A DNA stretch of 24,743 nt, taken from the IMG/VR virus record IMGVR_UViG_3300034198_003482, positions 1 through 24,743 of that record. One strand, written 5' to 3'. This document shows, one piece after another, positions 14,276 through 20,392 of the stretch (position 1 is its first letter; every line of letters starts with the position of its first letter). The notes below the pieces were generated by a model. It ran no database searches. It had not been told where the DNA came from and saw only the letters and a program-made list of their open reading frames with translations. The stretch is from a virus. The translations under genes were made by a program, and so were the position numbers.

Positions 14276-15826
14276 CTAAATTTGACTAGCAAAATCTGGA
14301 ATACGGTTGAGTTGAAGTCGCATTGTTGTAAAAGTCGGAACCATACGACTGTTAAAAATGATGTGTCTAATTGACATACCGTTAATGATTCCTAGATACC
14401 GCAAACTTTGACCCAAATGAAGTTCTACTGGCATTGCACCTAAGTATCCAATATCTGCCGTTTGAGTAGAGGTTCCGTCAAATGTTGCAAATGTTCGCAG
14501 ATAAGTTGTTGCTTGATAGCCCAACAAGGCACGAAGCAAAAACTCTACATCGTACATAGTTCCAAAATGGTAAATTCTAACTAGGTCATTTTCATTGGGT
14601 TGGTTTGACGATTTGTCGTAGATATCATCTACACTCAAACCTAGCGATAGCCCATAATTAGGGTCAAGGTACTTCATATCAAACATTCGGTTGATAATCA
14701 GGTCAAAACTAATAGTGCTTTGAGTAACGCCAATGCCACCAATAAGACCAAATTGCTCTGAACCAGAGACTTCATAACCAACATCCACATCTGGTGTTCC
14801 TTGGTAGACCATATCTAGGCTCGCTGGGTTATACATAAATTGAAAACCGTATTTTTGCTGGTCAAGCGCAACGTCTCCAACCGTGTCCCCTTTAGAGTCT
14901 GTAGGAACCAATGCCGCAGTTGGCGTCAAAGTTTTATTGCTACCTTTTTGTTTATTAAATAAGTCTGCTCTAGGAACAATCATCCCTTTGTGGCTGACGG
15001 TGCTTGGTACTTGAGTCGATGTCGTAATGTCAAATGCTTGAGACCATAGGTTCATGGCATCGCTAACCAATTTAGGCGAATTTGCTTGTCCAGACATAGC
15101 CGCATACTTTGTTTTATTCAGTTCGTATGAAAAATTTTCTTGAGAACTAAAATAGGCTTCTTTTGGATACGAAGCGTTGTATTTGAGTCCTGATTGAGAG
15201 AGGATAAGTATGCCTTTTTCAATTTGGTCAAACGCTAAGGCAGAATACGGGTTTGGAGTAGTTCCTGTGCTGCTTTGAACTAAATCACTCAAAGATTGTG
15301 TCCAAACTTTTATCCTAGAGTTGCTGTCATCAACCAACGTCTGGTCAGCAACTAAATTTGCTTTTATTGTAACGACTGCTGCGTTTATGTCAGTACAAGC
15401 AACGTCTCTTACTTTTTGACCTGCGTGAGGACCACTAGGGTATAAGGTATCTCCTTCTTTCCATTGAGCACCGCCTGGAAAGTTATAGGCATAAACTTGG
15501 TCAAAAGCAACTACAGTAGAGACGTAAGGGTTGTACTGAACAGGCAATGTTAGTAAGTATGGGTTGATTCCTTGGCTGGCGGCAGACGCATCAGTCCCCG
15601 TGTATGCGGCGTACCCATTGACATATTTTACATAGGCGTTGTATTGATTAGCCCTAGTAGACACCGCTTTAGCAAGGACAACTTGTTGCTCATAATAAAT
15701 AGCAGTTTGTAGCCATTCTTTTTGAGCGGCATATTTGTCTAATTTTGTGGCAGTCGTACTATCAATGATTTGTTGGTCTCTAGAAGTAATTGATTTATAG
15801 TCGGCTTCAGTTATTTGATAACCCAT
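14276..15826 (-). CDS. Baseplate protein with C-terminal CIS-tube-like domain
   Basis: A 516-residue structural protein. Its N-terminal part (about 1-290) is mostly helical, with a coiled-coil-like start (residues 10-60) and many Tyr and Ala, and matches nothing I know. The C-terminal part (about 322-512) has the pattern of the CIS-tube domain of contractile injection systems: KYGFQFMYNPASLDMVY (325-341), GVTQSTISFDLIINRMFD, MPVELHLGQSLRYLGIINGM and MVPTFTTMRLQLNRIPD. In Afp7/PVC7 this domain is fused to LysM, while here LysM is encoded by the next gene. I infer a place between tube end and hub. ATG start with GGGAG six bases upstream, overlapping the tape measure stop by one base (TAATG). 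Confidence 0.78.
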   Translation of the reverse strand: MGYQITEADYKSITSRDQQIIDSTTATKLDKYAAQKEWLQTAIYYEQQVVLAKAVSTRANQYNAYVKYVNGYAAYTGTDASAASQGINPYLLTLPVQYNPYVSTVVAFDQVYAYNFPGGAQWKEGDTLYPSGPHAGQKVRDVACTDINAAVVTIKANLVADQTLVDDSNSRIKVWTQSLSDLVQSSTGTTPNPYSALAFDQIEKGILILSQSGLKYNASYPKEAYFSSQENFSYELNKTKYAAMSGQANSPKLVSDAMNLWSQAFDITTSTQVPSTVSHKGMIVPRADLFNKQKGSNKTLTPTAALVPTDSKGDTVGDVALDQQKYGFQFMYNPASLDMVYQGTPDVDVGYEVSGSEQFGLIGGIGVTQSTISFDLIINRMFDMKYLDPNYGLSLGLSVDDIYDKSSNQPNENDLVRIYHFGTMYDVEFLLRALLGYQATTYLRTFATFDGTSTQTADIGYLGAMPVELHLGQSLRYLGIINGMSIRHIIFNSRMVPTFTTMRLQLNRIPDFASQI

Positions 15827-18762
15827 TACATACTCCCTGCGTTAGAAACTAAGGTGTCTTCTTCAAGATACTGCTTTATCAAGTTAGCCAAACGTCTTGC
15901 TTCTTGCTCAGTGGCTTGTGCTACAGTTACGTTTACCACTACATTTGCCCTTGTTGATTTCTCAGCAATCATCTTGTTTTGACGATATTCACGTGCTTGG
16001 TTAGCATCAAGAATCGCCTCACCAGCGTGAACGTTTACAGGCTGGTCGTGAGAAACATAATTCATACCCGAACTTGCACTGGCTTTACCTGTCAAATACT
16101 TTTTGTAAGAACCATCTACATAGGCAGGTTCCCAAGACCAGTCAGTGCCTTTTTTAGATAGGTCGTAAGCAATACGGGCGTTCATTACTGGGTCAAGAGC
16201 ATCTTTGGCATTTGCTAGATGATAAGCCCTCTTTAAGTTTTCTCCGCTTTTGCTTCCCATATCGATTTGGAAAAGACCGTAGGTATCTCTGCCACCCATA
16301 CGTTTATGCAGGTCTGATTTACCACGTGACGCTGCTTGGACAACAGCCTCAGCAGTACGCAGCGCATCTCCTCTAAAACCAGCGGTAAGCAGGGCTTGTC
16401 GTGAGTTGCTAGTCCAGCCAGACGACGACTTACCAGACGAGTCTCCAGCAGTAAGGCTTAGGTAATTAGACGAGTTTCCACCACCAGCGATGTCAGCAAA
16501 ACCAAGACTCTGCCTAAATGACACTGGAATTACAGACTTATTAGCAGCAGAAGAAGGACCTGTTTGTGAGGCGCTGTTGCTCGTGCTTGAGTTAGTAGTG
16601 TCTGAGGCAGGTGTGGCAGAACCAGATGGCTTCCATTTTGTTGGGAAACCTCCTGCTAAATGAGGCGTAGGGTCAACAGCAGCAGCCGTTGGTTGAGCAT
16701 TAACTGCTTCACACAAAGCAAGGTGAACGTGTGCCCCAGAAACATTTCCAGTTTTACCAGATGAACCGATTACGGTTACACCCTGAGAAACCATCTGCCC
16801 AACTTTTCCACTAAAATTGCTTAGGTGGCAATACACAGTCGAAAGTTTTGGACCGTGTTGAACAACTACGTATTTACCTAACTCAGAGTTTTGTTCTTGG
16901 TAAGCAATCTTTCCATCAGCAGATGCGTAAACTGGCGTTCCTTCTTGACACCACCAGTCAAGACCACCGTGAGCACCAGACCAAAGAGAAGGGTCTTTAG
17001 CGCCCCAGCCAGCGCCCAGTTGTTGAAACTTTTTTACTGGAGGAACTAGGTTGATAGTGCTAGTCGTCATTGACAGTTTGGTTGGCGCAGAGTTACCGCC
17101 ACCTTTACCGTCAAACATTCCGCCAATAGCACCGCCAGCCATACCGCCAAGCCAACCACCTAGCGCACCGCCTACAAAAGTACCGACAGGTCCAATAAGG
17201 CTTCCTAGCGCACCGCCAGCAATTGCTCCAGCAGTGCTTCCTACACCTGAACCAATAGACGCTCCTTGATGAGAGGTTCCTATTCCTTGCAGGGCTTCCA
17301 TTCCCCCACCAATAACCGCTCCAGTGATACCTAGTTTGCCAATTCCAGATTTAGCAAACCCTCGTAAAGCACCCTTAAATCCTCCGCCAGTGGCATAGGA
17401 CCCAGCCTTACCGAATATGCCTCCAAAACCACCACCGCCAAAGAAACCCTTGCCGCTACCGCCGCCGCCAAAGAATCCTCCGCCAGCGCCACCCTTGCCC
17501 ATCATCATTCTCATCATCAAAAGATTTTGACCAGTGTCAAGAAGTTTGCTGCCCATTTGAGTAAAGCCACTACCAGCGTTGCTGCCTTGCAAAGTGTCAA
17601 AGTAAGACTTTAGCCCACCAACAGTAGGAGTCAGTTGGTTGATGGCAGAGTTAAGTGCCTCAATAGAACTGGCTGCGGTGTTCATACCGTCAATGTACGA
17701 TTTCTCAGCAACCTGCATAGAGTTTGTGTTGGAAGCATTAATTCGTTGTAGAGCGTCTTGTGGGTTAGCGTTATTGATGCCAGCCTTTTTCATCAACGAT
17801 GACATAGCAGCGTTGTTAGACAAATCCATGTTGTTGCCCTTGGCTTTTTCAACCAAGTATTGCTTGACCAATTGTTGCTGGTCATCGGTCAGTCCCATAG
17901 CCTTTAGGTCAACACCAAGGTAGCCTCTACGGAAAGAGTCATTGACTCCTTCCACGGTCATCTTACGACCATTACTAAGACGGTTACCAACGTCCTGCAA
18001 AATAGAGCCAATAGAACGTTCTTTGCCCGTACGTGGGTCGGAGGTAAAAATACCTAATGTTTGCATTAGATTTTTAGAACCAGCGCCTGTTGTAAATCCA
18101 GAGATGGCTTGGGCTGCCGCCATATTGTCCATGTTTAAATACTTGGCGGCATTTCCAACGGCAGCCAAGGTCTGGTTATACGTGCTGCCCTGCATAGTAT
18201 TGACGTTCATACCCTGCATAGCAAGGTACTGCGATACAGCAGCAGGTGAGCCAGGCGACGTAATGCCGCCGCCCATTGCTTTAAACGTAGCGCTTTCTAG
18301 CGCACTGCGAGGACCATTAAATCCGCCCATAACCGCAGCGTTGTAATAACTGGTGGCTTGTTGGATTACAGGGGCGGTGCTCTGCATCATACCGCCGACG
18401 CCGCCAATAATAGCCTGACCAGCCTGTATGCCGCCCATAGCCAAACCAGTGCGGTAGTTAGCCTTGTCTTGGGCTTGTTGCAGGGCGTTTATCTTGTCAA
18501 GCCAAGGCATCATCGAACCGTAAATACGGTCGTGAATAGCCTCGTTACCAAAACGAGCGTCGTTGCTACCTAGTTCAAGTCGATTACCTGATTTAGTTCC
18601 AGAAGGCTTTACTACTTTGTCTAAAGCACCTGCGGCTTTTCCAGATGAAGAAGCGATTCGGTCTACTGATTTTTCGGCTTGACCAAGCAAAGAGACGATT
18701 TTTTGAACGTCAACGGAATAAGACTTTAGGCTGTCTGCCAGTCCTTTTTTGCCCATAGCCAT
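15826..18762 (-). CDS. Tape measure protein with M23 peptidase and lysozyme-like domains
   Basis: Sets tail length and probably opens the cell wall during DNA entry. The 978 residues run as follows: helical N-terminus (1-130); Ala/Met/Gly-rich helical region (130-420); glycine-rich FFGGGG segment (423-460); hydrophobic glycine-zipper stretch (480-550) that could insert in a membrane; M23 (lysostaphin-type) endopeptidase domain (about 575-700) with H598, D602, H646 and H678-V-H680, the expected zinc and catalytic residues; Ser/Thr linker (710-785); lysozyme-like domain (about 787-890) with DTYGLFQID (826-834); and a C-terminal helix. The lysozyme-like domain shows VVQAASRG (807-814) where active enzymes have AESGG, so the catalytic Glu appears to be Ala811. 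ATG at 18762 with AAGGA seven bases upstream. It follows the tail assembly chaperone, the conserved order. Confidence 0.93.
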   Translation of the reverse strand: MAMGKKGLADSLKSYSVDVQKIVSLLGQAEKSVDRIASSSGKAAGALDKVVKPSGTKSGNRLELGSNDARFGNEAIHDRIYGSMMPWLDKINALQQAQDKANYRTGLAMGGIQAGQAIIGGVGGMMQSTAPVIQQATSYYNAAVMGGFNGPRSALESATFKAMGGGITSPGSPAAVSQYLAMQGMNVNTMQGSTYNQTLAAVGNAAKYLNMDNMAAAQAISGFTTGAGSKNLMQTLGIFTSDPRTGKERSIGSILQDVGNRLSNGRKMTVEGVNDSFRRGYLGVDLKAMGLTDDQQQLVKQYLVEKAKGNNMDLSNNAAMSSLMKKAGINNANPQDALQRINASNTNSMQVAEKSYIDGMNTAASSIEALNSAINQLTPTVGGLKSYFDTLQGSNAGSGFTQMGSKLLDTGQNLLMMRMMMGKGGAGGGFFGGGGSGKGFFGGGGFGGIFGKAGSYATGGGFKGALRGFAKSGIGKLGITGAVIGGGMEALQGIGTSHQGASIGSGVGSTAGAIAGGALGSLIGPVGTFVGGALGGWLGGMAGGAIGGMFDGKGGGNSAPTKLSMTTSTINLVPPVKKFQQLGAGWGAKDPSLWSGAHGGLDWWCQEGTPVYASADGKIAYQEQNSELGKYVVVQHGPKLSTVYCHLSNFSGKVGQMVSQGVTVIGSSGKTGNVSGAHVHLALCEAVNAQPTAAAVDPTPHLAGGFPTKWKPSGSATPASDTTNSSTSNSASQTGPSSAANKSVIPVSFRQSLGFADIAGGGNSSNYLSLTAGDSSGKSSSGWTSNSRQALLTAGFRGDALRTAEAVVQAASRGKSDLHKRMGGRDTYGLFQIDMGSKSGENLKRAYHLANAKDALDPVMNARIAYDLSKKGTDWSWEPAYVDGSYKKYLTGKASASSGMNYVSHDQPVNVHAGEAILDANQAREYRQNKMIAEKSTRANVVVNVTVAQATEQEARRLANLIKQYLEEDTLVSNAGSM

Positions 18763-18764
18763 AG

Positions 18765-18920
18765 TTATTTCCTTACAACCTTGCCGTTTTCTCTGGCTAT
18801 TTCTAGCCAGTTAGTTCGTTCTCTTGGAGTCATTTCTTTGATGTCTGAAAGACTCCAATTAGAGAACGTCCTACTAATCAGTGACCATTCGCCAACTAAA
18901 CGTTGATAGTCCGCAGTACT
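18765..18920 (-). CDS. Tail assembly chaperone, +1 frameshift extension
   Basis: A 51-codon open stretch in the +1 frame relative to the chaperone gene upstream, with no ATG, GTG or TTG before its conserved part. It encodes STADYQRLVGEWSLIS, then FSNWSLSDIKEMTPRERTNW, and ends in VVRK. The WSLSDIKEMTPRERTNWLE part is typical of the second half of phage tail assembly chaperones, which is usually made only by ribosomal frameshifting. A shift at TTT TAG would join it to residue 270 of the first half and give a 321-residue fusion. Its stop is two bases before the tape measure ATG. The ATG inside (18833) could start only a 22-residue peptide, which would cut the conserved region. Confidence 0.82.
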   Translation of the reverse strand, partial: STADYQRLVGEWSLISRTFSNWSLSDIKEMTPRERTNWLEIARENGKVVRK

Positions 18921-18930
18921 AAAAGCGAAA
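18918..18930 (-). promoter_or_regulatory. Predicted +1 programmed ribosomal frameshift site
   Basis: On the minus strand the chaperone's zero frame ends TTT CGC TTT TAG. The last sense codon is in a run of four T, so tRNA-Phe can re-pair one base forward while the UAG stop waits in the A site. This is the logic of the bacterial RF2 site (CUU UGA). Reading then continues AGT ACT GCG in the frame that encodes the MTPRER segment. A second possible slip is TTT to TTC at the preceding TTT C. An AGGAG sequence lies 11 bases upstream of the slippery TTT, a longer spacing than in RF2. A -2 slip is not supported by the pairing. Confidence 0.7.
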
Positions 18931-19731
18931 CAACGCTCCTAGATTTAGCGGAACCACAACCTCTCCGCCGCAATCTGGACAGGTCAACTCCACATCTTTA
19001 AACTGTGGACCTGGGCTGCGCTTGGTTAATTCAGCCCCGATAGCACGACGGTCTAAAATACCCAAGTTTAGGATTTGGTTTGGGCTAATGACAGGGCTAT
19101 CGTCGATTTGTAGAACCGTTTGTTTCAACAAGATGGTTGTCAGTTCTGCTACGGTTTTGTTTTCGTCTTCTGAAATAAGACGGGCAGTTATTCCTGTAGG
19201 TAGAGTGACGGTGTATTTGTGCTTACCTTGGACAACGAATGTGCGGTCATTGATTGGGTCTACCAATGCTTTGACCGACACTTCCGCATCCAAATCAAGA
19301 GTGACATCTTTGTAATCTTCGCAACCAGCACACCAAGCACCGACTTCTGGATGTTTACCAAAAGTGGCTCGGTAGATGCCCAACAACAAAGAGTCTCGGT
19401 CTCCTATTAGTAGGTGGTCAAGAACCTCATCAGTTACTGACTGATTGCCGACCCTTACTACTGCTCGACTAAGAACAGTATTGAGGATTCGTGCTGGGTT
19501 AGAGATTTTAGAGATAGCCTCTTCATCTCTACCCGTTAGTTCACGGACTTCTGCGGTCTTGATGACCTCCCCAGTGGGTGTTACATACCCACCAGGAAGG
19601 GTCACCAAGGTATCCGAAGGAGAAGTGATTACTGCTGGTTCAATGGCTGGTGCGGTGTCTTCTAATACTTTGCCAATTAAGTCATTGGCAAGAGTTGCGT
19701 TTGTTGCAGCATTTAGCGAGTTATTTTCCAT
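18919..19731 (-). CDS. Tail assembly chaperone, zero-frame product (T4 gp26-like, zinc ribbon)
   Basis: Folding partner of the tape measure protein. The 270-residue zero-frame product has LPGGYVTPTGEVIKTAEVRE, LTGRDEEAI (65-73), LLIGDRDSLLLGIYRATFG (107-125) and two cysteine pairs, C134/C137 and C251/C254, which could form a zinc ribbon. The GRDEE and GDRD..LL..R motifs recall the T4 baseplate-chaperone family (PF12322-like, from memory). It lies between tail tube and tape measure, exactly where frameshifted chaperones are encoded, and its stop TAG is part of the predicted +1 slip site. ATG at 19731 with AGGA seven bases upstream. Two products are expected: the short 270-residue form and a rarer 321-residue fusion. 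Confidence 0.85.
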   Translation of the reverse strand: MENNSLNAATNATLANDLIGKVLEDTAPAIEPAVITSPSDTLVTLPGGYVTPTGEVIKTAEVRELTGRDEEAISKISNPARILNTVLSRAVVRVGNQSVTDEVLDHLLIGDRDSLLLGIYRATFGKHPEVGAWCAGCEDYKDVTLDLDAEVSVKALVDPINDRTFVVQGKHKYTVTLPTGITARLISEDENKTVAELTTILLKQTVLQIDDSPVISPNQILNLGILDRRAIGAELTKRSPGPQFKDVELTCPDCGGEVVVPLNLGALFRF

Positions 19732-19753: not shown

Positions 19754-20392
19754 TTAGATGGTTTTGGCGTTAGTGAAGTGACCGTTGGTGCTTAGGTCGC
19801 CCCAAGTCATGTCAAATCCTTCGTGAACTAGAGTGATTTGCTCAACCAAGATAGCGTTGTCAGCGGCGTTTAGGTCCGAATAAGCAACGCTTGCAGGCCA
19901 GGCATTGTAGAAGTTAAAACGCATAACTACTTCATCTGTGGTTGTAGTTCCACCAGTTTGGTTAGTGAAGAACTCTTCTTTAGCAGTTCCACCAGCACCA
20001 GCAACTGGGTGGTTTAGAACAGCCACCTCAACATCACAACGGAAGTTCTGGTTAGCAGTAGCAATCGAGCCGCCGCTTACCGTGGCAAACAAGTGCTTCA
20101 TCCAATCCCAGTTCTGTGAGGTACCAATAATGGCACCACGCTGAAGAGTTAGCGGAGCAAAGGTTGTTTGACCAGGAATCTGGTGAACAGTTGTGTTGTA
20201 GCCACCTTCACGGTAAGGAATAGCGTCAGTGGTAACCGACAAACCTGACACAGAAGTAAAGCCAAAGGTCAGAGGCTTGGCAAAGGAACTCATTCCAGTG
20301 ACACCCTGCAAAGGCTTAATTGTTACTAGAAATCTAAAATTTCTAATAGGGTCGGTCTTTAGCGAAGACCTGTTGTTGATAACTGTAGCCAT
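19754..20392 (-). CDS. Tail tube protein, gp19-like
   Basis: Inner tube subunit of the contractile tail, 212 residues. The opening TDPIRNFRFLVTI (13-25), then FTSVSGLSVTTDAIPYREGG (45-64) and the motif FAPLTLQRGAI (78-88), followed by a WDWMKHLF segment (94-101), are the standard order of T4 gp19/tail-tube proteins (PF06841 type). The end contains ITLVHEGFDMTWGD, also typical. It assembles as stacked hexamers inside the sheath. ATG at 20392 with AGGAG six bases upstream, in a leader nearly identical to that of the sheath gene 15 bases upstream, consistent with high and matched expression. Confidence 0.94.
   Translation of the reverse strand: MATVINNRSSLKTDPIRNFRFLVTIKPLQGVTGMSSFAKPLTFGFTSVSGLSVTTDAIPYREGGYNTTVHQIPGQTTFAPLTLQRGAIIGTSQNWDWMKHLFATVSGGSIATANQNFRCDVEVAVLNHPVAGAGGTAKEEFFTNQTGGTTTTDEVVMRFNFYNAWPASVAYSDLNAADNAILVEQITLVHEGFDMTWGDLSTNGHFTNAKTI

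Follow-up and report, generated by a model that had tools for sequence, protein, structure and literature searches.

A phage tail-chaperone gene that is probably read in two frames through a slip forward of one base on TTT followed by C

Introduction

The DNA stretch of 24,743 nucleotides analysed here (the window) poses a question about one of its minus-strand genes: a long reading frame with similarity to T4 gp26 ends at a TAG, and a second frame, displaced by +1, runs on beyond it and encodes a further conserved segment. Are the two frames read as one protein, and if so, at which codon does the ribosome change frame? Tail assembly chaperone (TAC) genes of the lambda G/GT type are known to yield a short and a long form (PMC5009743), and a preliminary description of the sequence had proposed that this gene is a TAC with a programmed +1 shift, placed on the codon directly before the stop by analogy with the RF2 gene. 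We examined the gene, its neighbors and 140 related loci.

The Locus and Its Two Reading Frames

Direct reading of the minus strand confirmed the layout given in the preliminary description: the zero frame ends ...GGA GCG TTG TTT CGC TTT TAG, the +1 frame runs open between 18938 and the stop ending at 18765, and in the window this frame has no ATG, GTG or TTG ahead of the ATG within WSLSDIKEM, and thus no start before its conserved segment. Near the end of the zero frame there are two in-frame TTT codons (18930-18928 and 18924-18922), of which the preliminary description took only the second into account as a slip codon. By the ORF map and Pfam matches, the gp26-like gene sits between the tail tube and tape measure genes (Table 1), which is the usual slot of a TAC gene; the same order of tube, gp26-like and tape measure genes is found in four Streptomyces phages (L052-L055), in L138 and in Listeria phage LIS04 (L183). 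As a separate observation on the window as a whole (1-24743), GATC does not occur in it at all, against about 95 occurrences expected from base composition, which suggests that a GATC-directed restriction system of the host is being strongly avoided.

Table 1. Coordinates of the features discussed in the text (positions in the window)
Feature	Position	Strand	Basis or remark
Zero-frame ORF, 270 aa, T4 gp26 family (T4_baseplate), candidate 'G'-type TAC	18919..19731	-	Pfam, phrog_150, AF2 model
+1-frame segment, 53 codons + stop, candidate 'T'-type extension	18765..18926	-	GW(S/T)L..IK.L..RER.NWL domain
Zero-frame stop TAG	18919..18921	-	Two codons past the proposed slip codon in the window
Tail tube protein, gp19 family, directly upstream of the zero-frame ORF	19754..20392	-	Pfam Phage_T4_gp19 1e-28
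Tape measure protein, M23 + lysozyme-like domains, directly downstream	15826..18762	-	Pfam 1.4e-22 and 2.8e-10; phrog_167 2.3e-24
Proposed slip tetranucleotide UUU_C	18927..18930	-	UUU 18930-18928 -> UUC 18929-18927
Zero-frame A-site codon CGC at the proposed shift	18925..18927	-	A-site codons in relatives
Stop-adjacent TTT, slip codon of the preliminary description	18922..18924	-	Not conserved
AGGAG	18936..18940	-	Upstream of both TTT codons, by 5 nt for the conserved one and 11 nt for the stop-adjacent one

The zero-frame protein, which carries a CxxC pair on its C-terminal side, matched Pfam T4_baseplate (2.4e-10; 40.9 bits against a curated cut-off of 24.5) and the baseplate hub family phrog_150 (2.1e-8). 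An AlphaFold2 model of the zero-frame protein alone had a mean pLDDT of 90.8, and its top structure matches in BFVD were T4-like baseplate hub assembly proteins, with Bacillus phage BCD7 also matched. The closest folds in the PDB were YqbN (3klu, Z 5.8), which we take to be a prophage TAC homolog, and the HK97 TAC (2ob9, Z 4.7, Foldseek probability 0.89), the next row scoring 2.5; with Z-scores under 8 these matches to TACs are modest. A search of the PDB with the family profile found no sequence relatives.

For the second half, the +1 domain of the relatives gave weak matches to Pfam Phage_P2_GpE (0.019) and to the tail protein family phrog_6416 (0.0022), and an hhalign comparison with P2-type GpE (82.5%, E 1e-5) showed a weak but consistent likeness; the GpE match in the P2 record is the E' half of E+E', for which the annotation gives a -1 frameshift immediately ahead of the tape measure gene. 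T4 gp51 was considered as a source of the +1 domain and rejected, as no adequate match was obtained: there was none at E<=1 among the T4 ORFs of the gp26/gp51 region, and phrog_634 reached only E 0.14-0.24. The matches support a TAC with short and long forms as the product of this gene, its resemblances to TACs and to P2 GpE both being modest.

Relatives and the Conserved Frame Break

The 140 relatives comprised 47 usable IMG/VR records, a further 80 IMG/VR records from a family alignment search (which gave 460 confirmed candidates), four Streptomyces phages out of six matching records, and nine bacterial-genome loci, mostly of Streptomyces, Nonomuraea and Saccharothrix. The IMG/VR relatives are related among themselves and their counts are not fully independent; statistics on the site were taken over 106 distinct contexts and over clusters at 80% identity (69) and 60% identity (31). 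A BLAST search among phage records other than those of Streptomyces phages identified no relatives save for Listeria phage LIS04, whose match was weak and local, and a search of NCBIfam yielded nothing useful.

In 139 of the 140 relatives the same domain of ~45 residues (consensus GW(S/T)L.EI..LS.RER.NWL) lies in the +1 frame just past the zero-frame stop, the exception being L145, where it lies in the -1 frame. A profile of this domain matched the +1 reading of the window and of all 139 of these relatives, with a worst E-value of 3.7e-16, which is a completeness check and not independent proof, since the profile contains most of the sequences tested with it. As judged by this comparison the frame break is genuine and more than chance, and the central proposal of the preliminary description, a programmed +1 shift in a TAC with a conserved second half, is upheld. 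In two lineages (L039-L042 and L046) an upstream stop closes the +1 frame at a distance of as little as 4 codons from the zero-frame stop, and a shift site elsewhere would have little room.

Existing annotation of the Streptomyces phages treats the second half as a hypothetical gene of its own in BRock (L052 3812-3994, with the start placed inside the conserved domain), LuckySocke (L054 3857-4012) and GiJojo (L055 3809-4006), and omits it in pSt2308 (L053). In all four it would be better annotated as a +1 joined gene; for annotators, a short or missing gene between a 'baseplate protein' and the tape measure gene would be the second half of a fusion.

The Proposed Slip Site

An in-frame TTT is present zero to three codons before the stop in every one of the 106 contexts, and likewise in 69/69 clusters at 80% identity and 31/31 at 60%. 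The base that follows it is C in 67 of the 69 clusters, and in the two remaining lineages the TTT is followed by a stop codon (TTT TGA in L039-L042, TTT TAA in L046). Among the 106 contexts the next zero-frame codon is CGN in 78, CAR in 22, CTN in four and a stop in two, with arginine always encoded by CGN and never by AGA or AGG. As the C is kept while the encoded residue changes among Arg, Gln and Leu, it is the nucleotide and not the amino acid that is under conservation, as a need for the P-site tRNA-Phe to re-pair with UUC would predict. At three further Phe positions that are well conserved in these genes, TTT is the codon in 51/68, 43/60 and 29/43 sequences. The proposed slip codon is TTT in 7/7 actinobacterial genome loci and in 4/4 Streptomyces phages, where TTT makes up 15% and 22% of Phe codons, respectively.

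By these comparisons the conserved candidate for the slip site is UUU_C, two codons before the site chosen in the preliminary description; in the window it reads TTT_CGC (18930-18925, minus strand), with a CGN codon in the A site, and the gene is probably read in two frames through a slip forward of one base at this point. Only the invariance of the site was used here, given that synonymous-constraint z-scores were higher in other columns through shared codon bias. We also considered avoidance of in-frame UUU_C elsewhere (16 seen against 36.8 expected) and rejected it as support, as the xxT_TTC register is equally depleted (19 against 44.9) and the avoidance is not frame-specific.

Alternative Readings of the Frame Break

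The preliminary description had placed the slip at the stop itself, with tRNA-Phe moving from TTT (18924-18922) to the overlapping TTT and the A site being occupied by UAG. The window does have TTT_TAG, UUU_U permits re-pairing, a TTT precedes the stop in 10 of the 106 contexts and a CTT in four more, and in L039-L042 and L046 the conserved TTT itself stands directly before TGA or TAA. However, the codon before the stop is variable (TTC 46, CTC 12, TTT 10, GAG 6, GAC 5, GAA 5, and others including CGC), and most of these other codons are unable to re-pair in the +1 frame; five relatives at 57-58% identity (L057, L058, L063, L065 and L066) have TTC there. Alignment of homologs, the check that had been suggested, showed the +1 frame to be conserved (139/140) and the TTT TAG, together with the codon before the stop in general, not to be. 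A stop occupies the A site of the conserved TTT in only 2/106 contexts, and a slip at the stop leaves the invariant upstream TTT and its following C unexplained in genes whose stop comes one, two or three codons later. Since RF1 also recognizes UAG, RF2-type feedback could not operate at a UAG site. We regard a shift of this kind as improbable, though TTT_TAG could add minor slippage in the window phage alone.

Stimulators of the kind that would accompany an RF2-like site were also sought. The AGGAG to which the preliminary description had drawn attention does lie 11 bases upstream of the stop-adjacent TTT; with respect to the conserved TTT its distance is 5 nt, and relatives do not keep it (e.g., TTA GGT ACC TTA TTT CGC), the mean anti-Shine-Dalgarno energy at this spot being only about -4 kcal/mol. 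It was rejected as a Shine-Dalgarno stimulator on account of this lack of conservation. A strong Shine-Dalgarno-like stretch, GGCGGAGAGGT (18957-18969 in the window), recurs at the corresponding position in relatives, some 28-36 nt ahead of the slip codon, with a mean anti-Shine-Dalgarno energy of about -8.5 kcal/mol over the 106 contexts; at that distance it is too far away for an RF2-type effect. Downstream RNA gave a mean folding z of about -1.0 over 36 contexts with no clear element, and around the slip site the relatives' contexts revealed neither a conserved Shine-Dalgarno-like stimulator nor a strongly structured one.

It is very unlikely that the two frames are separate genes, the +1 segment being translated by reinitiation or from a start codon of its own. 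Some relatives do have an ATG, GTG or TTG in the +1 frame, the annotated second half of BRock being started in this way, and in some distant loci, L152, L160 and L162 among them, the second half starts at a separate ATG that overlaps the stop of the gp26-like gene (ATGA). The start codons of the closer relatives are nevertheless scattered in position, not conserved and often within the conserved segment, while several lineages, the window included, have none before the domain; moreover, separate genes would leave the fixed UUU_C unexplained.

Even less credible is entry into the same frame by transcriptional slippage or by a -2 ribosomal shift. Frame +1 is equal to frame -2, and the TAC of phage Mu uses -2 (PMC5009743, PMC3498833), but there is no homopolymer run at the slip site (TTGTTTCGC), and where the E-site codon is TTG or TTA, the commonest ones, tRNA-Phe would face a mismatched UGU or UAU after a -2 move, whereas a +1 move gives UUC. 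A sequencing indel or pseudogene, with nothing in its favor beyond the frame break itself, has a negligible probability, since the same break is found in 139 other records, complete phage genomes among them, with the downstream domains intact, and no close relatives that lack the frame change were found.

The Same Domain Pair in Distant Loci

In a number of distant contractile-tail loci (L148-L151, L157, L173-L177, L179 and L180) the +1-domain profile identified the second-half domain at the C-terminus of a gp26-like protein encoded by a single ORF; some of the single matches are weak, and the +1 domain and these in-frame fused versions gave an hhalign value of 96.5%. Such in-frame fusions show that the two halves belong in one protein. 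L147 carries the second-half domain in the +1 frame after TTT TTT TGG (a weak match). The comparison indicates that the same domain pair is linked in several ways, of which the putative UUU_C frameshift is one.

Several further arrangements were observed. In L145 (4001-4863, a Lysobacter MAG) and L172, the genome is GC-rich and the gp26-like gene ends with nine T (GCT TTT TTT TTG), the second-half domain being in the -1 frame; this is possibly a version of the gene pair that relies on a -1 frameshift or on slippage in transcription. The gp26-like gene of L185 (a Bacillota genome) ends GAT TTT TTC CTT, which contains the canonical -1 heptamer T_TTT_TTC, and past this end the -1 frame stays open. 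Listeria phage LIS04 (L183 2285-3244, SP15-like) has about 230 unannotated bases between its 'baseplate hub' and tape measure genes, in which the +1 frame is open and encodes a similar W-T-D-x-E segment; its zero frame ends GAG TTT TTT AGT ACC CGA TTC TAA, with a possible +1 site on TTT.

Proposed Mechanism

We consider it highly probable that the gene is the TAC gene of a contractile-tailed phage, giving a short form of 270 aa that ends at TAG and, by a programmed +1 slip at UUU_CGC, a long form of 321 aa. The majority of ribosomes would terminate at TAG and release the gp26-like protein, and a fraction would slip at UUU_CGC, where the P-site tRNA-Phe, before CGC is read, would leave UUU and re-pair with the overlapping UUC, which its GAA anticodon matches perfectly. 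Translation in the +1 frame would then add 53 residues, with a predicted junction ...NLGALF/AFSTADYQR.... For the window phage, the predicted tryptic junction for a UUU_C slip is ...NLGALFAFSTADYQR, and a slip on TTT_TAG would instead give GALFR and FSTADYQR; the junction peptide predicted for the fusion, ...GALFAFSTADYQR, would be incompatible with a slip at the stop-adjacent TTT_TAG. If the two products divide their work as lambda G and GT do, the tape measure protein would be coated by the short form, and tail tube subunits would be recruited through the added domain of the long form.

What is new here is a broad family of bacterial viruses with a UUU_C site in a gp26-type gene and a relaxed A-site codon, although our coverage of the literature was incomplete and an earlier report is possible. 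The family, which counts 140 loci with the window and forms 69 clusters at 80% identity, offers a large body of sequences for comparing a +1 site across viruses of bacteria, and its UUU_C site appears to depend on neither a stop codon nor any obvious stimulator. It also suggests gp26-type proteins as TACs. A broader proposal, on which we are evenly divided, is that the T4 gp26 family is the long-missing TAC of T4-type contractile tails, its phage members using a bare UUU_C P-site slip, the +1 element that has been proposed for archaeal viruses and is known from eukaryotic ones, and other parts of the superfamily using a -1 slip, an in-frame fusion or adjacent genes.

Comparison with Known Systems

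The zero-frame protein of the window belongs to the Pfam family of T4 gp26, which PMC3004832 lists among hub assembly chaperones; in T4, however, genes 26 and 51 are separate and on opposite strands, and a 2016 review treats T4 as the exception to G-T frameshifting. Lambda G/GT and P2 E/E' share with the window the position of the gene and the short and long products, and the +1 domain resembles P2 E', whereas their shift is -1 and on another slip sequence. The RF2 gene (prfB, CUU_UGA) and a Listeria phage site (CCC_UGA) (PMC5009743, PMC10885494) likewise shift by +1 near a stop codon, but there the A-site stop is part of the site, a context that the window family offers in only the two cases given above.

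The closest parallels at the slip site are found outside bacteria. Slippage on UUU_C has been shown for influenza PA-X, and a wider UUU_C class was predicted (PMC3498833), a prediction that now becomes testable in bacteria; UUU_CGN is prevalent in plant amalgaviruses (PMC5052127), and the passage of that paper dealing with PA-X cites a shift of only about 1-2% on UUU_CGN in reticulocyte lysate. As in the window, the P-site codon moves from UUU to UUC with CGN in the A site and no obvious stimulator, but the ribosomes are eukaryotic, the genes are unrelated, and the zero frame continues well past the site, unlike in the window family where a stop follows within 3 codons.

For the HF1-type haloarchaeal myoviruses, a TTT-CGC motif has been proposed for a +1 TAC frameshift (PMC7230728), and the part of PMC5009743 that mentions the TAC of HSTV-2 cites it as very likely +1. 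In the HSTV-2 record (L190 6983-7814), which annotates a joined TAC, we read TCC TTT CGC AGA near the first stop; this site shares eight bases, TCCTTTCG, with the influenza PA-X site. The HSTV-2 TAC was rejected as a homolog, neither half having a significant match to the gp26-family or +1-domain profiles. The HF1 group and HSTV-2 have in common with the window a TAC gene between tube and tape measure genes and a proposed +1 shift with TTT-CGC close to the first stop, and they differ in being archaeal viruses and in that the A-site codon of the window family is relaxed, with CGN, CAR, CTN or a stop following the conserved TTT.
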